Source: a virus. Taken from it: a DNA stretch of 41,823 nt. The DNA lies in IMG/VR virus record IMGVR_UViG_3300042922_000692, positions 1 to 41,823 of that record; one strand, written 5' to 3'. This document shows positions 9,409 through 21,770 of the stretch, piece after piece; position 1 is the stretch's first letter, and each line of letters begins with the position of its first letter. The notes beneath the pieces are model-generated. The model did no database searches and had not been told where the DNA came from. It saw only the letters and a list, made by a program, of their open reading frames with translations. The position numbers and the translations under genes are program-made.

Positions 9409-9660
9409 TCAAATCACCTCCCTTCGAAGTCCTTCTGTATTGCATTCCAATACATTTGGATTAAAAAAAATATCACCAAGTGGTTCCTGCAATGCATCCG
9501 ATATCTTGATCATTGTTTCGGAACTAGGAGCATATAACCCGTTCTCAATATGAGATAAGGAAGTTCTAACAACCCCAATCTCATCCGCTAGTTCTTGTTG
9601 TGTGATGTTTTTTTTCCTTCGGATGTTAGCGATATTGTTTCCCAGTGCAACTACGTTCAT
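9409..9660 (-). CDS. Cro-like XRE-family repressor (first gene of the leftward early operon)
   Basis: 83 residues from the ATG at 9660 (AGGTGGTGAGCGAG precedes it). The HTH spans about 5-60: LGNNIANIRRKKNITQQELADE, then VVRTSLSHIENGLYAPS, ending with ALQEPLGDIFF. It is divergent from the rightward repressor gene and transcribed from a TTGACA promoter overlapped by operator repeats. By position it is the lytic-side switch regulator. Confidence 0.9.
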   Translation of the reverse strand: MNVVALGNNIANIRRKKNITQQELADEIGVVRTSLSHIENGLYAPSSETMIKISDALQEPLGDIFFNPNVLECNTEGLRREVI

Positions 9661-9674
9661 CTCGCTCACCACCT

Positions 9675-9765
9675 TGTATTGTTCTTCTAAACACACAATA
9701 CACTATTTATGTTTTGAGTGTCAATACATTTGTTTTGGTACTAAGAACATCTTTTTTATGTATTG
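9675..9765. promoter_or_regulatory. Divergent switch region with four CAATACA operator half-sites
   Basis: The heptamer CAATACA occurs at 9696-9702 and 9722-9728. Its complement TGTATTG occurs at 9675-9681 and 9759-9765. This puts four copies in 91 bases between the divergent regulator genes. The two inner copies overlap the -10 and the -35 of the leftward promoter, as expected for repressor/Cro sites. Confidence 0.7.
9695..9724 (-). promoter_or_regulatory. Leftward early promoter (PL-type)
   Basis: On the minus strand TTGACA (9719-9724) is a perfect -35, separated by 18 bases from TATTGT (9695-9700). It directs the Cro-like gene and the whole early operon. Operator copies at 9696-9702 and 9722-9728 cover both boxes. 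Confidence 0.75.
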
Positions 9766-9816
9766 TTGTGTTTTGCGTCACTGCACATTTATGATGATCT
9801 TGGGCAGGTGGTAGTT

Positions 9817-10191
9817 ATGAAAAATACCGAAGAACTCGGTAAGAAAATCAATCAGCTTAGACTAAAAAATGATCTCTCGCTCAGGGACTTAGCAGAGAGA
9901 TCGGGTGTGAGTTTTTCTTTTATTAATTCAATAGAAAAGAATCGATTTAACGGATCAAGAGAAACAATCGTCTCCATAGCTAATGCGCTTAAAGGAGCGG
10001 ACAAAAATGAACTTTTGTTGCTGGCTGGATTCTCCCCGGACGAGGAACTAATCGGGGAAGACAATTTATTGTTTGACCCAGACGTCCAGTTCATAGCCCG
10101 CGCCAAGAAGGATATGCACCCGAACAAATTCCGCAAAATGATGGAGCTCGCGAAGAAGGCAAAAGAAATGGTGGAGGGGGACGACGACTGA
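9817..10191 (+). CDS. XRE-family phage repressor (CI-like)
   Basis: 124 residues from the ATG at 9817 (AGGTGG upstream). HTH at about 5-62: ELGKKINQLRLKNDLSLRDLAE, then VSFSFINSIEKNRFNGS. The C-terminal part is short and helical (FRKMMELAKKAKEMVEGDDD), with no LexA-like autoprotease domain. Inactivation by cleavage in trans by the ImmA-type peptidase encoded next is therefore expected, as in ICEBs1 and phage 105 systems. First gene of the rightward lysogeny transcript. Confidence 0.9.
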   Translation: MKNTEELGKKINQLRLKNDLSLRDLAERSGVSFSFINSIEKNRFNGSRETIVSIANALKGADKNELLLLAGFSPDEELIGEDNLLFDPDVQFIARAKKDMHPNKFRKMMELAKKAKEMVEGDDD

Positions 10192-10240: not shown

Positions 10241-11107
10241 ATGGCGAACAGATTATTGCGAGAGCTTGGAAATCCACAGACGCCGATTGATCCAACAGCA
10301 ATTGCTCAAACATTGAATTGCTTGGTCTCATATGAAGATATGGAAGGATTAGCGGAGGGCTATACTGCGAAGGTTCGTAAAAAAGACGGCAGTTATCACT
10401 ATGTGATTTTCGTAGCTACGGATTACGATGTTCGTTTTACTGAGGAAATCTTAAAGCGAAAGCAACGGTACACTATCGCACATGAGATCGGGCATATCAT
10501 CATGCATCATTCATACGATTGGGGAACAATAGACCCGGAATCTGCACTTTACAACCGCCTAGAAGTGGAGGCTAACTGGTTCGCTTCTCGCCTTCTCATC
10601 CCGGATTATGTTTTCGAAAATGTTAACGACCTCGATCCCGATGTGCTGGCCGACAAATGCCTGGTTAACTATTCATCAGCCAAGAAACGTTTAGAGAAGC
10701 TGGACATTCGAATTTCCCAATCGCTGATTAAAGAGGCTTCTGAGAGTTTTATATGGGGTGAACCAGAAGAGATTGAAGACTCAGGCGCTTCTAATCCAAT
10801 TATTGAATATGAGGCGTGGCAATTCGAGGTAGCAGCTGCCTTAAATATAGAAATGATTATCTGTACGCAATGTGGCCAAGTTCACTCCCGAGGACTAATT
10901 GAGATCTTCCCAGTGTGCAACCAGTGTGATGCCATCATTGATATTGAGCCAATCCAGAGTGTGGGCGATCCTGAACCGATTCCCGATAAGCCAATAGATA
11001 TTCCGCAAAAGAAAATTGAAATTCCGTCCCACCCCCGAAATGAAGAGCAGTGGAATCGCAATATGAAGCAATTGGATAAGCTTCGAAGAATATACGGATA
11101 CGATTGA
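10241..11107 (+). CDS. immA: ImmA/IrrE-family metallopeptidase with C-terminal zinc ribbon
   Basis: 288 residues from the ATG at 10241. The zincin motif YTIAHEIGHIIMHH lies at about residue 77-90, with the downstream EVEANWFASRLLIP helix giving the third ligand. ImmA enzymes cleave the XRE repressor encoded beside them. The C-terminal 120 residues carry a CTQCG and CNQC pair about 20 residues apart, a zinc ribbon, and then a Pro-rich linker; this tail is unusual for ImmA. Homology-like sequence (ALVRPDFKRAIS) continues in frame upstream of the ATG without a good start codon, so translation may begin earlier or be coupled to the repressor. Confidence 0.92.
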   Translation: MANRLLRELGNPQTPIDPTAIAQTLNCLVSYEDMEGLAEGYTAKVRKKDGSYHYVIFVATDYDVRFTEEILKRKQRYTIAHEIGHIIMHHSYDWGTIDPESALYNRLEVEANWFASRLLIPDYVFENVNDLDPDVLADKCLVNYSSAKKRLEKLDIRISQSLIKEASESFIWGEPEEIEDSGASNPIIEYEAWQFEVAAALNIEMIICTQCGQVHSRGLIEIFPVCNQCDAIIDIEPIQSVGDPEPIPDKPIDIPQKKIEIPSHPRNEEQWNRNMKQLDKLRRIYGYD

Positions 11108-11851: not shown

Positions 11852-12841
11852 ATGGCTAAGCCACGAATCTTTGTCAGTTCTACTTATTACGATCTTAAAC
11901 ATATTCGTAGCAATCTTGAAAACTTTATTCATTCTTTCGGATACGACTCTGTATTATTTGAAAGAGGCGATATCCCATTTTTTCATGAAAACCCATTAGA
12001 TGAATCTTGTTATACTGAAATCGATAATTGTCATATGCTTGTTCTTATAATCGGTGGCCGGTATGGAAGTGCAACTTCATCTGAAAAAAAAGCAGATGAT
12101 AATACATTACCGGAGAAATTCAATTCAATTACAAAGAGAGAGTATGAAACTGCTCGAGAGAAAGATATACCAATATTTATTTTTGTCGAAAAAAATGTGA
12201 TGGCAGAATATTATACTTACAAACAAAACAGAGGAAATAACTCTATTAATTATGCTCATGTAGATAACATAAATATTTTTGTACTCCTAGATGATATTCT
12301 TTCACAGAGAAGGAATAACCTCACCAAGGAATTTGAAAATTTCGAGGATATCTCATCATGGTTGAGGGATCAATGGGCAGGCTTATTTGCTGAAGCATTA
12401 ATTCTAAAAAGTACAGATAAGAATCTCAAGGATATGACCATTAAAATAGATGAACTCTCTCAAATAACTGAAGCGATGAAAGAATATACTGAGTCATTAA
12501 TGAGGAAGATTCAACCTGAAAATTTCGAAAAAATTATAAGCGAACATGAAAGAAAAATTGAAACAAATAGAATCAAAAAATTTGCTAAAGAAGATTTGAT
12601 TGATTATCTTATTCAAAAATCAAAAGATCCAGACTATGCAAGAAAGGAAATCAATATTGCAAGAGCATTTGTAATCATGCGCGATTGCGATAACTTAGCC
12701 GACTTCATGAAAAAAATAGATTTCAAAAAAGAATTCATAGATTTCTTTTACATTAATAACAAATCCGCCGCCGATAGAGATTACGACAACATAAAACATC
12801 TATATTTCTCTGAAGAAGAAGTTGCTGCAACCACTAATTAA
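11852..12841 (+). CDS. DUF4062-domain protein (candidate defence/immunity cargo)
   Basis: 329 residues. The N-terminal 120 match DUF4062: KPRIFVSSTYYDLKHIRSNL at the start, CYTEIDNCHMLVLIIGGRYGS at 53-73, and SITKREYETARE at 92-103, the conserved alpha/beta core. In other proteins this domain, TIR-like in size and layout, sits in front of STAND NTPase or effector modules. The remaining 200 residues are helical and charged, with no ATPase motif or membrane span. The gene is markedly AT-rich, lies between the immunity genes and the integrase, and ends at a terminator. Lysogen-expressed superinfection defence is an inference. Confidence 0.85.
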   Translation: MAKPRIFVSSTYYDLKHIRSNLENFIHSFGYDSVLFERGDIPFFHENPLDESCYTEIDNCHMLVLIIGGRYGSATSSEKKADDNTLPEKFNSITKREYETAREKDIPIFIFVEKNVMAEYYTYKQNRGNNSINYAHVDNINIFVLLDDILSQRRNNLTKEFENFEDISSWLRDQWAGLFAEALILKSTDKNLKDMTIKIDELSQITEAMKEYTESLMRKIQPENFEKIISEHERKIETNRIKKFAKEDLIDYLIQKSKDPDYARKEINIARAFVIMRDCDNLADFMKKIDFKKEFIDFFYINNKSAADRDYDNIKHLYFSEEEVAATTN

Positions 12842-12842
12842 T

Positions 12843-12867
12843 AAGCCCTCACCGGGCTTTTTCTTTT
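12843..12867 (+). terminator. Intrinsic terminator after the DUF4062 gene
   Basis: AAGCCC (12843-12848) pairs with GGGCTT (12854-12859) around TCACC, followed by a T-rich run. It separates the immunity transcript from the integrase gene, whose ribosome site follows immediately. Confidence 0.85.
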
Positions 12868-12881
12868 AAGGAGGAACGACC

Positions 12882-15017
12882 ATGGTTGCAGTTTCCAAAG
12901 ACATCGACAAGACCATAAATGCCGTCCAGGGCGTCCACCTTTACGCGCGCGTATCGTCCGAGGATCAGCAGGATCGTGAGACGATCGAGAACCAGATTGA
13001 ATTCGGAACGAAGTATTGCGACCTCCACAAGCTCCACATTGAGGGCTGGTTTAAGGATGACGGTGTCTCCGGAACAATTCCACTCGAGCAGCGTCCCGAC
13101 GGCGGCCGGCTAATTGAAGATGCCAAAGCAGGCAGAGTAAAGACGGTCCTCATTTTCAACATGAAGCGCCTCGGCCGTAAAGCTCGCGTTACCCTGGACG
13201 CCGTTTATCAGCTCGAGCAGTACGGTGTAAAAGTAAAGAGTATGACGGAACCTTTCGACACGAGCGATCCGGTCGGGCGGTTCATCATCACAGTTTTGGC
13301 CGGACAAGCTGAGCTCGACCGGGACACCATGCTCGAGACACTCTGGCACGGCGCTAACCGGGCTGCTCGCCTCGGTAAGTGGCTAGGCGGCATTGTCCCG
13401 TTCGGATACCGCAAGAATGACGATGGCTTCATAGAAGTCTCTGAGGAGCCTCTGCCGGGCAAGCCAGATATGACGGAGCCGGACGTAATCCGCCTCATGT
13501 TCGATCTGATCGCGGATCAGAAATGGTCGTCGATCAAAGTGGCGGACTACTTTAACGCCTTAACCATCCCTCCCTCTTACGTTCGCGATGGCCGTAAAGT
13601 CCGGAAGGGAAAGCGTAAAGAGCAGACGGCCGGCGTCTGGACACCTGGTCGAATCACAAATATGATCAGAAGCTCGACTTACAAGGGGATTCACATCTAC
13701 GGTAAGCGATCTACGAAGGATCGGGAGTTAATCGAACGCGAAGTACCGGCGATCGTTTCTGAGGATCAGTGGGAGCGTGCTCAGCTTGTGCTGACCAATA
13801 ACCAAATCGATTCGTTTAAGAACGCCACGAGGAATTATTTGCTTCGCGGATTGGTTCGATGCGGAAAGTGTGGACTTAATTATCATGGCACGAAGTTCCG
13901 CGATAAGGTTTATTATGTCTGCAATGGGAAAATGGCATACAGAGGGCCGGCACAAGGGAAGTGTGAATCTAGAAATGTCCCTGCTTTGTGGCTGGAGGAC
14001 TATGTGTGGTCGAAGTGTGTGGAATTTATCGAAAACCCCGGAGAGCTCATCAAAGAACTCAGCGCGGCCATGGAAGTCCGCAAGTCATCGAAGGAGAAGT
14101 TCGAGGAAGAACGGCAACTCATCATCAAAGCTTTGAACGAGAAGGATGAGGAGAAGCAAGAGATCCTCGCTCTATTCCGCAAGAAGATCATCACGGCCGC
14201 TGACGTCGAAGCCCAACTGCAGGAAATGATGTACGAACGCGTCTCCCTCGAGCAGCGGATCCGGGATCTCGAGCAACAGATCGTAAACGAGGAAGGAATG
14301 CTTGATAAATTCGATTCCGCGGAATTGCTCCTCGCCCAGATGAAGCAGAAGCTCGACAATGATCCGTCGTTCGAAACCAAACGAGAAATCGTTAAAACAT
14401 TAGTCAATGAAATCTTAATCGATTCCAAAGATCCAGATGGTCCGGATGACGATGGTGGGAACGATGATGGCCCTCGGAAGCCTAAATCACCGGTGACCGT
14501 TAATGTCCGGTTCACCTTCAGTAATTTCAAGGTTGATTCACGAACCCCTGTCCGTGCAATTAATAACCTTGAAATATACATAGAGCGTCGGACTTCCGCT
14601 CCACATCAAAGAGAAGTCACTGGTGAACCCGACGAAACGCCGGGAGCGAGGCTTCGTCATACTCGTATGTTACGTAATTATTCGATTTCTTACCTTGGCA
14701 GCATCGCAGGTTTGTCTGAGCAATCGATAATTGTAACAGAGTTAAGAAATAACATCCCCAATCCCCAAACGCTCCGGAAGCTCGCGAATGCATTGAAGGT
14801 GCCTATTTGTTATTTGGGTTGCTTCGAGATACTCCCGGAGGACACGCTCGCGAATAAAATCCGTAAGGCTCGCCTTTACATGGGCTATACGAAACAAGAG
14901 TTTGCTGAATTAATTGGATCTGATGCGAAGTCCGTTCGTTATTGGGAGAGAGGTTCGAGGATACCTTCTGATAGGTTCATGCCTTTAATAGAAGAATCAC
15001 TTCAGATACTTTCATGA
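12882..15017 (+). CDS. int: Large serine integrase with tandem C-terminal XRE-type HTH domains
   Basis: 711 residues, longer than typical large serine recombinases. AAGGAGGAACGAC precedes the ATG. The resolvase domain (17-165) has the catalytic YARVSSEDQQ, with Ser25. A Recombinase domain spans about 190-300. The zinc ribbon starts CGKCG (about 327-331), with further cysteines near 345 and 360, and a coiled coil follows at about 385-470. After an acidic Asp/Gly/Pro linker (about 513-537) come two HTH_XRE-like units. The first (596-642) has LGSIAGLSEQSIIVTELRN; the second (655-695) has RKARLYMGYTKQEFAELIG and VRYWERGSRIPS. The enzyme would integrate the phage at attP/attB; the HTH tail is unusual. 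Its 3' end overlaps a convergent gene by 6 bases. Confidence 0.95.
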   Translation: MVAVSKDIDKTINAVQGVHLYARVSSEDQQDRETIENQIEFGTKYCDLHKLHIEGWFKDDGVSGTIPLEQRPDGGRLIEDAKAGRVKTVLIFNMKRLGRKARVTLDAVYQLEQYGVKVKSMTEPFDTSDPVGRFIITVLAGQAELDRDTMLETLWHGANRAARLGKWLGGIVPFGYRKNDDGFIEVSEEPLPGKPDMTEPDVIRLMFDLIADQKWSSIKVADYFNALTIPPSYVRDGRKVRKGKRKEQTAGVWTPGRITNMIRSSTYKGIHIYGKRSTKDRELIEREVPAIVSEDQWERAQLVLTNNQIDSFKNATRNYLLRGLVRCGKCGLNYHGTKFRDKVYYVCNGKMAYRGPAQGKCESRNVPALWLEDYVWSKCVEFIENPGELIKELSAAMEVRKSSKEKFEEERQLIIKALNEKDEEKQEILALFRKKIITAADVEAQLQEMMYERVSLEQRIRDLEQQIVNEEGMLDKFDSAELLLAQMKQKLDNDPSFETKREIVKTLVNEILIDSKDPDGPDDDGGNDDGPRKPKSPVTVNVRFTFSNFKVDSRTPVRAINNLEIYIERRTSAPHQREVTGEPDETPGARLRHTRMLRNYSISYLGSIAGLSEQSIIVTELRNNIPNPQTLRKLANALKVPICYLGCFEILPEDTLANKIRKARLYMGYTKQEFAELIGSDAKSVRYWERGSRIPSDRFMPLIEESLQILS

Positions 15018-15278
15018 AAATAGATCACGTTCCCAATGAGGCTTCGATTTTTCCTTTACATAAGATAGAGTCGTAGGACTTCCTATCTTCATGGCCAAAT
15101 GGTTTTCAGGATCCCAAACGATAAAATGCTTGTCCGCCAGCTCCTGCAATGAATCAGTTATCTGTTTCCGGGACCACTTCAATCTGCGGACAAGCTCGTC
15201 GATCGATTGCGGCCGTCCATACAGGCGATGATGATGAAATAAAATAGTCAGCAATTTCCTAGGCTTATCATCCAGCAT
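15012..15278 (-). CDS. SOS-regulated winged-helix protein (candidate RDF/excisionase or antirepressor)
   Basis: 88 residues from the ATG at 15278 (GGAGG nine bases upstream). Residues 5-60 read as a winged helix: RKLLTILFHHHRLYGRPQSI, DELVRRLKWSRKQITDSLQE, then a wing at DKHFIVWDPENHLAMKIG. The promoter contains a LexA-type box in its spacer. The gene converges on, and overlaps by 6 bases, the integrase gene, so its mRNA would be antisense to it. Size, DNA-binding fold, SOS control and position fit a recombination directionality factor or antirepressor. Both are inferences. Confidence 0.8.
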   Translation of the reverse strand: MLDDKPRKLLTILFHHHRLYGRPQSIDELVRRLKWSRKQITDSLQELADKHFIVWDPENHLAMKIGSPTTLSYVKEKSKPHWERDLFS

Positions 15279-15308
15279 GGGTCGTACCTCCGTTATATTT
15301 GTACGATC

Positions 15309-15338
15309 ATTATATTACGAACATTCGTTCTTGTTCAA
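15309..15338 (-). promoter_or_regulatory. Promoter of the winged-helix gene
   Basis: On the minus strand TTGAAC (15333-15338) and TATAAT (15309-15314) are separated by 18 bases, a strong sigma-A promoter about 30 bases upstream of the start codon. Confidence 0.8.
15318..15331. promoter_or_regulatory. LexA/DinR (SOS) box
   Basis: CGAACATTCGTTCT lies between the -10 and -35 boxes. It matches the Firmicute LexA consensus CGAACRNRYGTTYG at 12 of 14 positions, including both CGAAC and GTTC half-sites with correct spacing. LexA bound here would occlude RNA polymerase; DNA damage would release it. Confidence 0.75.
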
Positions 15339-15345
15339 GAAACAG

Positions 15346-15375
15346 AAAAAGCCCGCTCGATTAGAGCAGGCTTTT
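15346..15375. terminator. Intrinsic terminator at the end of the late operon
   Basis: AAGCCCGCTC (15349-15358) pairs with GAGCAGGCTT (15364-15373) in a 10-bp stem with one G-U pair. A T-run follows on the minus strand. The amidase stop codon sits in the loop. It insulates the late operon from the SOS promoter. Confidence 0.85.
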
Positions 15376-16251
15376 CGCTTTCATGAATGTATATACGATC
15401 AATAGTTTCCGGAGTGCTTCCTTTGCATACTTCCCGCCTTTAACCAACGTATCGTAAAGGCTGAGAATCTTGGCCACGATGCCGGCGGCTGTCACTTCCC
15501 CCATATATCCGATTTGCGGCAATACATCCGCGAGCCAAAGCAGTTTTTCCTCCGCCGCTTTCCCCCACTTTGGATCTACGAGCTTACCGCCGAGATCCCG
15601 AGAGCGTTCCGTTGCCGCATACGCCTTCGCGTAGTCCCCATTCCCACCGCGTTGGTAATCGATGTACTCCTCGAACATCTCGAGCGTCATTCCATCCGCC
15701 TTCGCCAGCGTGTTATACAACCGAGTCCAAGGAAACTTTAGCCCTGGACAAAAAGGTTTCCGAACAGGATCAATCTGGAAGTGTCCGAGAACGTAATATG
15801 GGTTCAATTGTATCCGGTACCCAAATTCATTTTGACACTCCTCCTGAATATATTTGTGAAGCCAAGCGCTGCTCCAGAACTGTGGTTCAGTAAGATCACC
15901 ATCGACTCCATGACCGGCATATCCTTCGTGCTCAATTCCCACGCAATAAAGATTCGGGTTTACGCCCATCTGCTGAACGAGAGGTTGTTTACTAGCCTTT
16001 ATGGCCTCCGCAGTCAGGCCCTGCGTATACGCCGCTCTACTAAGTCGCACATACTGATGGATAATGCCGTCACGTCCGACGCCGTAATGACTGGAGCCGG
16101 GAGCGTTTGGATTTGCAAAGGTGTTGTACATACTTCCCATTGTTCCGACACTAATATGATCAACAATTGCGATTGGAACGTAAGCTTTGTTGTTTCGGAT
16201 CCGTGCGTCGTGCTTTGTGATCTTATCGCCGCGCCAAATCATTTCAACCAT
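15361..16251 (-). CDS. Endolysin: N-acetylmuramoyl-L-alanine amidase (Amidase_2/PGRP fold)
   Basis: 296 residues from the ATG at 16251 (GAGGAGGCGCGTACC upstream). The zinc amidase core occupies about 1-190. Ligands fit His32 (AIVDHISVGT), His157 (VLGHFQIDP) and Cys168 (KPFCPG); Glu107 in VGIEHEGYAG fits the catalytic acid. It cuts the amide between MurNAc and L-Ala. Residues about 195-296 are helical and resemble no known wall-binding repeat I can name. It is the last gene of the late operon, after holin-like genes. Confidence 0.93.
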   Translation of the reverse strand: MVEMIWRGDKITKHDARIRNNKAYVPIAIVDHISVGTMGSMYNTFANPNAPGSSHYGVGRDGIIHQYVRLSRAAYTQGLTAEAIKASKQPLVQQMGVNPNLYCVGIEHEGYAGHGVDGDLTEPQFWSSAWLHKYIQEECQNEFGYRIQLNPYYVLGHFQIDPVRKPFCPGLKFPWTRLYNTLAKADGMTLEMFEEYIDYQRGGNGDYAKAYAATERSRDLGGKLVDPKWGKAAEEKLLWLADVLPQIGYMGEVTAAGIVAKILSLYDTLVKGGKYAKEALRKLLIVYTFMKAKSLL

Positions 16252-17393: not shown

Positions 17394-20300
17394 CTACTTT
17401 CCAACGGCTTTGCGTGCGTTCTCGTTCATTTTAGCATCCAATTCGTCCAACTGCGAGCGTTTTTCTTTGGCTGATAGCGTCTTACTACGTTGAACTTCCT
17501 TGTACGCTCGGGAAAGTTTATCGATTTCTTTCTTGTAAGATTTGATTTCCTTGTACGCACTCGCTTGATCGGGCGGCAGATCCTTTTCGTTGAAGTCGGC
17601 GGAAGCCTTAGCAGAATCAAGCTTCTCCCACTTCCGATAGAATTCCTCTCGGATCTGTCCGCCGCCGGCCGTTGATACGAAGAAGGAACGGAAGAACGGA
17701 TCCTCCGTCCATTTCTTCTCAGGACGCACAACTTCTTTCCCGCCTTTAACAGTATCTATGCCCTTATCGATCAAGTCCACAGCGTACTGTCCGAGCCCGG
17801 CCGTATATCCCTTGATCGTGTTGTCGATAATCCGCGGGCTTGCCGCCTTTGTTTTCCCCATACCAATCGAATCCATAAAACCGCCGATTTCTTTGGACAG
17901 TTCGCTCGTATAGATGCCGTACTGATCCTTCTTCTCTAATCGTTGCTCTCCTCGCGGTACGACAGGTGCATCGCGGAAGAACGAATGATTGGTCATTGCC
18001 TCAAGCAGCGGAGAGAGTGCGGTCAGCATCACTGGCGGCGTCATAGACTCGGCAGTTGCCCGGCCGTAACCTTTGAAAGCATCTGGGTCGTTTTTCTGAA
18101 TCCATCGTAACATTCGCTCCGTGCTGGTAGAAAAGAGCATTCCCGCCTCGAATGGCTTCGGGATACGCACGAACTCATTGATCCCCGGAATTCCAATAAT
18201 GAAGAAGGTATCCTTCTGCCATTGCGGTATGTTGTCGTATTCCTTCTTCATATCATCCGGAAGGTTTTGATTCCAGTAATAGATACCCGTAGCAGGGGCA
18301 ACCAATGTCGTGAAAGCCCTGGTTAAGAACGACGCCGGGTTATCCTTAAGAGATCGAATCATCTTATCCGATCCCTGCAATGAAGCATTAAGGAAAGCCA
18401 CTGCTCGGTTTGCTTGCCGGACCGAACTTCCCGCACGATTGAAGTCCATCAAATCTCGAGCTGTATACGCTGCTTCCTCGATATCCCCCGTCTTTTTAAG
18501 CACCTTGTTGAACGCTCCGACTTTTGTAGACAACTCCGATATCTCCGCGCCTTTCCGAAGGATACCAACAGTTCCCTTGACTGCTTTATATCCGGAGAGA
18601 TACTTGGCCAGCTCCGCTGGACTTGTGACGACGTTCATTGCCTTATCCTTCAAGCTTTTCTTAAAGACGGTTTCCAATGCTTCCCGGCTAACATCCCGGT
18701 CAAGTGACATCATCGTGCTCATGGCACCGCCGCTATTCACGAATTTCTCGAAGACATCTGACTTGGTGACCGTGTGGAAGAAGCCCTTAAAGAAGTCGAG
18801 CGGATTAAAGCCGTATTTCGTGCTGTTAATTATGGCACCCATGACATCTCGAAACGCATTCCGAATCATGAATTCAGGTGTTAAAGTCGCTCCAGCACGA
18901 AGGATGCCGGCAGCCCCGCCTAGAAACTTGATCAAACTATTCGAACTTTCATGATCGAGCGATAGCATGGCATTATAGAGCTCAGGATCCCGTATTTTGT
19001 AAGATTGCTTCTTACCTTTCTGCCACACATCAACAATGTGCTCCTTGCCCGACTTACCTCCAGGGACATGCTCAACCCACGCGCCGGCTCCATCAACCTT
19101 TGCAAGATCTGAGAGTTGCAGTCCGACCTTGTTCTTCGCCACTGAGTTCATGACAAGGAATGTGTTCTTCACCATAGACTCAAGTGGATTGATGATCGTT
19201 CTCGTGCTACCTTCTTCACTCATACGCTTAACCGGGTTCATTAAGTTAGCGAATCCGTTACCCGATCCATATCCCCCGTTCTTAAAACCGGCAACAGCGT
19301 CATCGTCAAAGTAGCGAAGGAATGGTACATAGTTCGGATATTTCTTTCCAAGGGCATCAACTGATTCTCTTGTATAAATCTGAGCTTCGACCAACAGATC
19401 CATTAGAGCATTATTGTACTTAACGATTTCTTTTTGAGCCTTTTGAACCGCTTGGTTGCCGCCCCATTTCTGGATTACAGCTGCCATCTGAGAATCCGAG
19501 AAAGGAACTTCTTTGCCGTGTAACTTTTTTAGATCGCGAGCATGAACGGCCGCAAGGTATGTTGCAAAATCATCTTGTTTCATTCCGATTTTCTCAAGCG
19601 GCTGAACAATCGTTCGTAATCCATTTGCCAACTTATTTCCTTTGGAATCGAATATCCCACGCGTAGCCGCCATTTTCGCCTGTTCCCCAACTCCGCGGGA
19701 AAGCCTTGCTAATTTGTACATGGACTTCGATCCAATGCCAATAGCGCCCTTCAACGACTTCTCAAGAAGGGCGATCGGATTAAGGTCGTCGAAGAAGCGC
19801 GTATACAGTTTAGACCGTGAAGCCCCCTTACCTTGGGTAGCCCCTTCATGATCAAGCATTCCTTTGGCTTGATTGTATTCTCCCTGATCGAGCCAAGTTT
19901 TGATGTCTTTTTGCACGTTGCTTAGCCCTTTTTGTACGTTCTTCGGTAATTGCCGTTCCAGGAACGCTGTAAAGTTTGGAGCCAATTGACGAGCCTGTTG
20001 CGGATCGGACAGGGATATCCGCATATACTCCGCAATCCCCTCATCATGCCACTGTCCCCGCGGATACTGCCGGTAAGGATGAACGCCCATCGTATTCATC
20101 ATATTGATGAGCTCCGGCTCATACTGCGGATCTAACAGCCCGTGTTTCTTCGTCAAGTGATGACCGATCTCATGTGCGATGGTGTCGTAGTCTTGTGCGG
20201 CAGCCGATCGAATAACTTCCGGCTGAACCTTGTAAACCCCGAGAACTCCCTTGCCGCCGCCAGTACGCCCTGTATCGATCGTGATCCCTAGATTTTGTTT

Positions 20301-21770
20301 GATGTTATTCACGAGTTTCGTACGAGTAATCGTCTTCTTAGGATTGACCGGGACTGAAGGAGCCGGCGGTGTTAGTATCTGATGCTGCTGTGTTGATTGT
20401 GCCACCCCGGACACCGGCGTCGGAGCTGCCTGCGGTGGAACTGGCGGATTTGCCTTGGCCTGAGCTCCGGGAACGACACGACCTTGAACACCTTCCGGAA
20501 GTTGCTGCCGGATCTGTCCGCGGCTTGCCTCGAGTGTAGCCGCCACCTGTTGAAGTGCAGAACGCTCGGCCGGATCCGTCGCAGAATCCATCATGCCGCG
20601 AATCGATGCGAGTTCACCGTCGATATCCGCAATATCCGCTGGTTTCCAGGGTGGAATTACGCCGGCGTCGTCATCTACATATCCCGACTTAACGTGTTCA
20701 TCAGCAAGAGCCCGAAGCTCTTTAACCGAAGGCTTGCGGCCCTTGTCAGCAAAGAAGTCACGATACCAACGAGGATTGCTGGAAACCCGCCCGACCCGAT
20801 CGACAACCTCACCGCTAATCGGATCGCGGATGATCGTTCCCTGAGCGACCCCGCCGCGTTCGTCCATCTGCTTTTTAAGCAATTGGAACTGACTCTCTAC
20901 AGCATCGTTATATTGCTGCTGAATTCCTTCCCAACGCTTGAAGTTTCCCGCGAGCTCATCCCCCTTATTTGCGGCTGGGGAAGGTTGCAGTTCTTGAACA
21001 ATTCGATCAATAGGATGGACAGTATCCCCACGCGGACCGGTCATCTCCCCAATAAACTCATCAAGCGTTTGATTAAGCCCGCGCTGCTTAACATTCCTTA
21101 CAAGAGTTTTCGCTCCTTGAGCTACAGCCGGGACAGCGCCGCCAACGGCCCCACCGAATACCGCACCAAGCAAAGCGTCCTCCTCTAAGTGGTCAGCTTG
21201 CGGGTCTCTGGCCAGAGCATTACCGACAGAAAGCGGAGCTCCTACTGCAGCCTCCTTGACCGCCTCCGTTGCTACTCGGGGGAGCAGCTTCGAGCTGTTA
21301 CCAACGGACGGAGCCAATCGGCTGATCAATGCTCCAGTCCCCTTTGTCGCCGCATTGACTGCGGTCAATCCACCGCCTGGCGTATATAGCTCCTGAGCAA
21401 CGTCCGCGAATGGTTTAGTTTCCTTCGAAAGCCAATCAAGTCCGCGAAGAACACGCCCAACAACAGGGATATTCCTTCCGTTGTCTTCGTCCCATTTCGC
21501 TTGCTCAGCCTCTTTGATTTTCTCCTGAGCCTGAACAGCTTGCCCTCGTGCTTGAGCATCAGAAAAGGCGGTCTTTACTTGACCGCCCACCTTATCCCCT
21601 ATTTTCTTGACTGTTTTCGCTACGGATCCGGCAGCCTTAACGAGCTGCTCTCCATCAGCTTTATCCTTAGCAGCCATGTAATCCTTCAAAGCTGCCTTGC
21701 CCGAATCGTTGAGCTGTTCAAGTTTGACCTTTCCGGATTTCACTTCACGGTATAGTTTCTCCGCACTCAT
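17394..21770 (-). CDS. Large virion ejection protein with zincin metallopeptidase motif
   Basis: 1458 residues, the largest gene. GGGGTGAGGTC precedes the ATG. Residues 1-110 are helical and charged. A zincin motif, YDTIAHEIGHHLTKKHG, lies near residue 530, with a downstream DEGIAEYMR segment that fits a third ligand. The C-terminal half (about 780-1330) resembles the large helical domains seen in polyvalent proteins and podovirus internal virion proteins. Examples are FMIRNAFRDVMGAIINSTKY and NYVPFLRYF. The C-terminus is a charged coiled coil. In a podovirus of a Gram-positive host such a protein would be ejected to cross the wall and membrane; the peptidase may open peptides. Family assignment is partial. 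Confidence 0.8.
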   Translation of the reverse strand: MSAEKLYREVKSGKVKLEQLNDSGKAALKDYMAAKDKADGEQLVKAAGSVAKTVKKIGDKVGGQVKTAFSDAQARGQAVQAQEKIKEAEQAKWDEDNGRNIPVVGRVLRGLDWLSKETKPFADVAQELYTPGGGLTAVNAATKGTGALISRLAPSVGNSSKLLPRVATEAVKEAAVGAPLSVGNALARDPQADHLEEDALLGAVFGGAVGGAVPAVAQGAKTLVRNVKQRGLNQTLDEFIGEMTGPRGDTVHPIDRIVQELQPSPAANKGDELAGNFKRWEGIQQQYNDAVESQFQLLKKQMDERGGVAQGTIIRDPISGEVVDRVGRVSSNPRWYRDFFADKGRKPSVKELRALADEHVKSGYVDDDAGVIPPWKPADIADIDGELASIRGMMDSATDPAERSALQQVAATLEASRGQIRQQLPEGVQGRVVPGAQAKANPPVPPQAAPTPVSGVAQSTQQHQILTPPAPSVPVNPKKTITRTKLVNNIKQNLGITIDTGRTGGGKGVLGVYKVQPEVIRSAAAQDYDTIAHEIGHHLTKKHGLLDPQYEPELINMMNTMGVHPYRQYPRGQWHDEGIAEYMRISLSDPQQARQLAPNFTAFLERQLPKNVQKGLSNVQKDIKTWLDQGEYNQAKGMLDHEGATQGKGASRSKLYTRFFDDLNPIALLEKSLKGAIGIGSKSMYKLARLSRGVGEQAKMAATRGIFDSKGNKLANGLRTIVQPLEKIGMKQDDFATYLAAVHARDLKKLHGKEVPFSDSQMAAVIQKWGGNQAVQKAQKEIVKYNNALMDLLVEAQIYTRESVDALGKKYPNYVPFLRYFDDDAVAGFKNGGYGSGNGFANLMNPVKRMSEEGSTRTIINPLESMVKNTFLVMNSVAKNKVGLQLSDLAKVDGAGAWVEHVPGGKSGKEHIVDVWQKGKKQSYKIRDPELYNAMLSLDHESSNSLIKFLGGAAGILRAGATLTPEFMIRNAFRDVMGAIINSTKYGFNPLDFFKGFFHTVTKSDVFEKFVNSGGAMSTMMSLDRDVSREALETVFKKSLKDKAMNVVTSPAELAKYLSGYKAVKGTVGILRKGAEISELSTKVGAFNKVLKKTGDIEEAAYTARDLMDFNRAGSSVRQANRAVAFLNASLQGSDKMIRSLKDNPASFLTRAFTTLVAPATGIYYWNQNLPDDMKKEYDNIPQWQKDTFFIIGIPGINEFVRIPKPFEAGMLFSTSTERMLRWIQKNDPDAFKGYGRATAESMTPPVMLTALSPLLEAMTNHSFFRDAPVVPRGEQRLEKKDQYGIYTSELSKEIGGFMDSIGMGKTKAASPRIIDNTIKGYTAGLGQYAVDLIDKGIDTVKGGKEVVRPEKKWTEDPFFRSFFVSTAGGGQIREEFYRKWEKLDSAKASADFNEKDLPPDQASAYKEIKSYKKEIDKLSRAYKEVQRSKTLSAKEKRSQLDELDAKMNENARKAVGK

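Follow-up and report, generated by a model that had tools for sequence, protein, structure and literature searches.

A large serine integrase gene with a predicted internal attP, probably split on integration with removal of a tandem helix-turn-helix tail

The serine integrase gene of the window (the whole stretch of 41,823 nucleotides that was analysed) carries a predicted phage attachment site within its own coding sequence, and it almost certainly encodes two isoforms set by the state of the phage DNA, with integration at attP splitting the gene and excision restoring its tail. In the free phage, reading would run through attP (codons 556/557) into a C-terminal helix-turn-helix (HTH) tail to give a protein of about 700 amino acids. 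The attB lies in the host gene yifB/comM, at about the MNPCPCG codons, and its recombination with attP would cut the integrase gene (int) at attP. In the prophage, attR would then hold a complete body of about 530-560 residues followed by out-of-frame host residues, the tail DNA would pass to attL, where it would mostly lack a start codon and a ribosome-binding site, and excision would rebuild the tailed gene. The tail may be a module that binds phage DNA and is needed only before integration, where it would repress early or lytic transcription or limit its own operon until integration is finished; its loss would leave a standard integrase able to excise with a directionality factor. This splitting switch, together with the tail as a pre-integration DNA-binding regulatory module, is the best explanation overall, with a probability of roughly 0.85. 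The features of the gene are as follows.

12870..12874, + strand: ribosome-binding site GGAGG, read from the sequence
12882..15017, + strand: large serine integrase (LSR) gene in its free-phage form, body and tandem HTH tail, 711 aa, ATG start
12939..13382, + strand: catalytic resolvase domain, residues 20-167 (Pfam PF00239, 1.7e-27)
13482..13799, + strand: recombinase domain, residues 201-306 (Pfam PF07508, 1.9e-14)
13839..14018, + strand: zinc-ribbon domain, residues 320-379 (Pfam PF13408, Zn_ribbon_recom, 1.2e-11)
14043..14354, + strand: coiled coil, residues 388-491 (AlphaFold helices 388-433 and 439-491)
14493..14513, + strand: last strand of the LSR body, residues 538-544 (AlphaFold)
14523..14630, + strand: disordered linker holding attP, residues 548-583 (AlphaFold pLDDT below 50)
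14527..14572, + strand: predicted attP, a 46-bp imperfect inverted repeat TCAAGGTT...TG...AACCTTGA within the coding sequence, aligned with the reconstructed attP of relatives
14549..14550, + strand: predicted crossover dinucleotide TG, between P556 and V557 (attP alignment; the Harrison prophage diverges here)
14640..14819, + strand: HTH domain 1, residues 587-646 (HTH_19; AlphaFold)
14847..15011, + strand: HTH domain 2, residues 656-710 (HTH_3; AlphaFold)

The large serine recombinase domain set is complete, consisting of the resolvase catalytic domain, the recombinase domain, the zinc ribbon, and the coiled coil, and the PHROG 95 integrase profile covers residues 18-550. By its domains the protein is a large serine recombinase, for which recombinase activity is predicted. 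An initial annotation of this DNA had described an integrase body followed by two XRE-type HTH domains in an architecture that is not the textbook one; Pfam, AlphaFold, and a fold search bear out both points, and the tail is indeed a tandem of two XRE HTH domains. The acidic stretch at about residues 513-537, which had been taken for the linker, is an insertion before the last body strand (538-544) that is absent from the Harrison integrase, and the linker lies at about 548-583. The same layout of body and HTH tail is encoded by phage Harrison (695 aa) and by IMG/VR contig L017 (711 aa), which rules out a chance fusion; the Harrison/Paisley tailed integrase of 695 aa is 53% identical to that of the window. 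A frameshift that splits off the tail as its own gene, which the initial annotation considered capable of undoing its reading, was looked for and is ruled out because three phage-form genes read through. The C-termini of the phage-form integrases (...ESLQILS, ...IIKILHM, and ...KFMEILE) were inspected and carry no LAA-like or ssrA-like degradation tag.

The fold of the tail relies on concordant searches and predictions. With the tail searched alone, Pfam returns an HTH_3 match at residues 660-708 (8.7e-15) and an HTH_19 match at 588-644 (4.9e-7; 30.0 bits against a cut-off of 30.2). The AlphaFold prediction, built with 21 homologues, has a mean pLDDT of 86.6, with values of about 90 or more across most of 585-711, and places nine helices in two HTH bundles (587-646 and 656-710); an alignment mixing bodies and tails aligned poorly and was left out of the analysis. 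In a Foldseek search, P22 c2, 434 Cro, and SinR lie at 1.3-1.4 A over 60-63 residues, and no tail match reaches E 0.001, an expected outcome for folds this short. The tail is thus predicted to be an XRE/Cro-type tandem of the HTH_3-type five-helix fold. Tandem XRE HTHs in known families are sequence-specific DNA binders. The dN/dS of the tail is 0.17-0.26 in resolvable pairs and 0.07-0.28 among Brevibacillus tails; at about 0.1-0.25, tails are kept by purifying selection. The HTH cores are conserved over 21 phages, and the HTH2 core (K/D...NWE) is conserved across phages with differing repressors.

A further proposal had the tail recognizing operators of the phage's own repressor. In a low-power comparison of tails with CI-like repressors, own and shuffled similarity were alike (fractions 0.26-0.68), and for the Cro-like repressor the equally low-powered comparison gave a weak own-versus-shuffled signal (0.04-0.15; n = 6). 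This test being negative, the idea that the tail descended from or co-evolves with the CI- or Cro-like repressor of its own phage was rejected. As the tail is no closer to the repressor of its own phage than to those of others, the same operators are not implied, and the proposal is left unsupported.

In chromosomes, body and tail are found apart. All chromosomal relatives in the 35-66% range of body identity end close to residue 530-560, with unrelated C-termini, and a tail-only model run on the genomes of these truncated relatives gave a strong separate tail match in nearly all. In a sample of 400 Paenibacillaceae genomes, with a close integrase defined by E below 1e-240, all 12 close integrases end before the tail and none is full length: 11 end at model position 533-553 of 696, and one is broken earlier, at 459. 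In all 12 of these genomes the tail is strongly matched as a segment of its own (model about 538-696), which in nine lies on the same contig and strand as the body, 38-106 kb upstream, at the other prophage end. The approximately 100 other serine recombinases in the Paenibacillaceae set give matches over the body alone. The Brevibacillaceae and Thermoactinomycetales samples display the same split, as do the relatives examined among the few present in Clostridia. Several genomes are drafts, in which body and tail ends are sometimes on different contigs. Scans of viral contigs with the single sequence of the full protein or of the tail found no matches; a two-sequence alignment as the query gave a viral-contig match where these did not.

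Two of the chromosomal loci deviate in arrangement. In one genome (G003; L038 and L095), ~104 kb separates the tail end from the body end, double the length of a usual prophage, and the locus may hold two tandem elements at yifB/comM. In another (G145, contig C172; L084 and L109), a good tail is present at the left end, and at the matching half of yifB/comM unrelated sequence carrying a MerR-like gene stands in place of the body; this is a decayed prophage.

The half-sites of the window attP are symmetric at 12 of 22 positions, a level that only 0.15% of shuffles reach. Reconstructed attP sites in relatives are likewise inverted repeats, with a central TG or CA; sites with TG are inserted into yifB/comM in the sense orientation and those with CA in the antisense orientation, a pairing predicted by the central-dinucleotide rule for serine integrases. 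The att sites are short and quasi-symmetric, as in large serine recombinases, with a 2-bp crossover predicted at the central dinucleotide. A search for the shared core by longest common substring failed in five pairs, and alignment on the central dinucleotide was used instead. The codons of attP double as protein sequence, the conserved motif around T-x-V-R-x-x-N-N/T being the translated attP repeat. In the AlphaFold model, the cut point falls in the disordered linker directly after the last body strand.

Comparison of attR and attL reveals a short common core. When the attR sequence left of the core was fused to the attL sequence right of it, an open, in-frame tailed integrase of 675-719 aa resulted in all 18 scripted pairs (15 in the main set, two Clostridium, and Acetoanaerobium), and two further Brevibacillus pairs read by eye agree. 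The chance of an in-frame join is one third per pair, and the pairs share ancestry and are not fully independent. The rejoined set spans Paenibacillus to Clostridium, including Brevibacillus, Thermoactinomycetaceae, a Desulfoscipio MAG, and Acetoanaerobium. The reciprocal join restores an unbroken yifB/comM across the codons for MNPCPCG, and the left half of the rebuilt host gene scores 421.9 bits against the TIGR00368 cut-off of 362.4. The Harrison virion genome is 99.96% identical to P. larvae prophage contigs over 7,588 bp up to the core, past which Harrison reads into the tail and the P. larvae prophage switches to yifB/comM-like sequence. This before-and-after pair is, at the level of sequence, the best single proof of gene splitting.

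On the attR side, the whole serine-integrase body is kept and is followed by 3 to about 170 out-of-frame host residues. On the attL side, the tail frames are open and intact, and a start codon paired with a Shine-Dalgarno sequence occurs in the linker of three of 21 ordinary tails, at differing positions; in sense-orientation attL, the yifB/comM frame meets a stop just past the core. Intact tails under purifying selection would be selected for a role in the free phage or, in a minority, possibly as a separate protein. Six Brevibacillus genomes harbor an intact tail without an integrase body: L104, L105 (G833), L106 (G815), L107 (G821), L108 (G811), and L112 (G844). In all five loci checked, the tail neighbors a surplus C-terminal half of yifB/comM in antisense orientation; two of the genomes (G811 and G815) also have an intact copy of this gene elsewhere. 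The body-less tails have dN/dS values mostly of 0.1-0.25, and the five scanned all have a Shine-Dalgarno sequence with ATG or CTG in the linker. Such a tail is possibly a standalone regulator gene, and these features suggest that the tail can be useful without the integrase in this lineage.

The immunity genes of the window lie upstream of int.

9409..9696, - strand: Cro-like XRE regulator, divergent
9763..10191, + strand: CI-like XRE regulator, upstream of int on the same strand
10241..11107, + strand: ImmA/IrrE-type M78 peptidase

The repressor gene of the window is intact. The CI-like repressor gene and int share a strand; the gap between them is 1 bp in Harrison and holds three genes in the window. 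With int downstream of the repressor, the body may be made in lysogens too, in which case integration would be the step that strips DNA binding from the integrase. A terminator-like hairpin with a T-run lies at window 12843-12859, directly before the int ribosome-binding site, and hence int may depend on read-through or on its own promoter; a promoter scan around int in the window stayed at chance level. A gene between the immunity genes and int (window 11852-12841) encodes a DUF4062-domain protein and is a possible accessory or defence gene. In Harrison (L002), a gene annotated as a toxin in GenBank is located at 14063-16040, in the same region as int. Further along the window, on the minus strand (17394-21770), a 1458-aa protein contains an LPD38 domain (large polyvalent protein).

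What the tail does can be explained in several ways, of which regulation and tethering in recombination both fit the data. A DNA-binding regulatory module needed only before integration is inferred at about even odds. A more specific version, in which the serine integrase doubles as a phage-state-specific repressor whose tailed form blocks early genes and whose repressor part is deleted by integration, is tentative, at rather below even odds; if true, it couples lysogeny establishment to recombination in one protein. A role in recombination itself is somewhat unlikely: the tail would tether full-length integrase to phage DNA or help the attP synapse and so favor integration, and the truncated form would be tuned for excision with a directionality factor. 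The tailed form exists exactly when attP exists, the linker is long and flexible, and the HTH2 core is conserved although the phage repressors differ, all of which fit such a role. However, known serine integrases need no tail, and conserved tails in the body-less Brevibacillus elements suggest a role independent of the integrase. The effects that the initial annotation had envisaged, on the integrase's own regulation or on attachment-site use, are both possible.

The same body-less elements, with their linker start signals, together with the open tail frames and purifying selection in prophages, lend something to the view that lysogens also produce the tail, as a small regulator protein of its own translated from attL; given that start signals are found in so few of the other tails and at differing positions, and that the comM frame stops just past the core in sense-orientation attL, this is improbable. 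It is quite improbable that the tail is a passive by-product of a frame left open through attP, or a mere stability or autoinhibitory element: it is dispensable for the recombinase fold and attP is placed where an LSR body naturally ends, but its dN/dS is low, its HTH cores are conserved, and its predicted fold is repressor-like. The permanent fusion assumed by the initial annotation, a DNA-binding extension reading repressor operators, does have two genuine HTH domains, yet its static form is refuted by the split Paenibacillaceae genes and the attP reconstruction, and the lack of kinship between the tail and its own repressor adds to the case against a reading that is now scarcely credible.

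Integrases with the same LSR body, such as those of SPbeta (YokA), TP901-1, phiC31, and A118, act on short quasi-symmetric att sites at which the central dinucleotide sets orientation. None of them has an HTH tail, and their attP is not known to lie inside the coding sequence; the window int gene differs in both respects.

Two known systems each share one feature with that of the window, which fails the other defining features of both. In the archaeal 'suicidal' (SSV-type) tyrosine integrases, attP lies in the gene and integration splits it, which is reported to inactivate the enzyme; according to a 2021 review, recombinases that disrupt their own gene occur only in archaea (PMC8371274). An attP inside the integrase gene and a gene split to both element ends are common to both systems; unlike the SSV type, the window encodes a bacterial serine enzyme with the whole catalytic body on one side, and the DNA-binding tail alone would be removed. 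In mycobacteriophage BPs and its relatives, which have a tyrosine integrase, a tRNA attB, and a rep-int arrangement, attP is located in the repressor gene and integration drops a C-terminal ssrA-like degradation tag (PMC9262239, PMC4557955). As in this integration-dependent immunity, integration would remove a C-terminal part so that phage and prophage forms differ; in contrast to it, attP lies in int, the repressor gene is whole, and what would be lost is a folded tandem HTH module.

No earlier report of an attP inside a serine integrase gene was found in the open-licence papers searched. Durrant et al. reconstructed attP and attB for thousands of LSRs and found competence genes enriched among the targets; a term search of their main text gave no mention of helix-turn-helix, and no passage that it brought up describes an attP inside an LSR gene (PMC10083194). 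Since their sequences come from integrated copies, these would represent the truncated form. For P. larvae phages, published gene lists include integrase and serine-recombinase genes but neither attachment sites nor a tail (PMC6070908, PMC11860570).

Self-splitting recombinase genes have been described as exclusive to archaea, and here the splitting would extend to a broad Bacillota phage lineage and to a serine integrase that is not killed by it; integration-dependent protein switching was previously known for repressors in a group of mycobacteriophages. The integrase protein itself would report whether the phage is free or integrated, which opens to experiment how an integrase can sense the integration state of its phage and whether the tail governs direction or gene control. 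Serine recombinases of this clade that are collected from integrated genomes are truncated and end in host-encoded residues, and tools that call prophage boundaries can cut such elements wrongly, as in GenBank PP197248. The prophage ends of this record (L035), deposited as the 'complete genome' of Acetoanaerobium phage ANDSL2_ph1, are set wrongly when compared with NZ_CP154629 (L103): ~0.5 kb of host yifB/comM falls inside the record, and ~3.5 kb of phage DNA that contains the integrase tail is left outside it. ANDSL2_ph1 was accordingly rejected as a tail-less phage, the tail being present in the chromosome at the true left end. The plasmid collection lists the 2.6-Mb replicon NZ_CP154629 as a plasmid.
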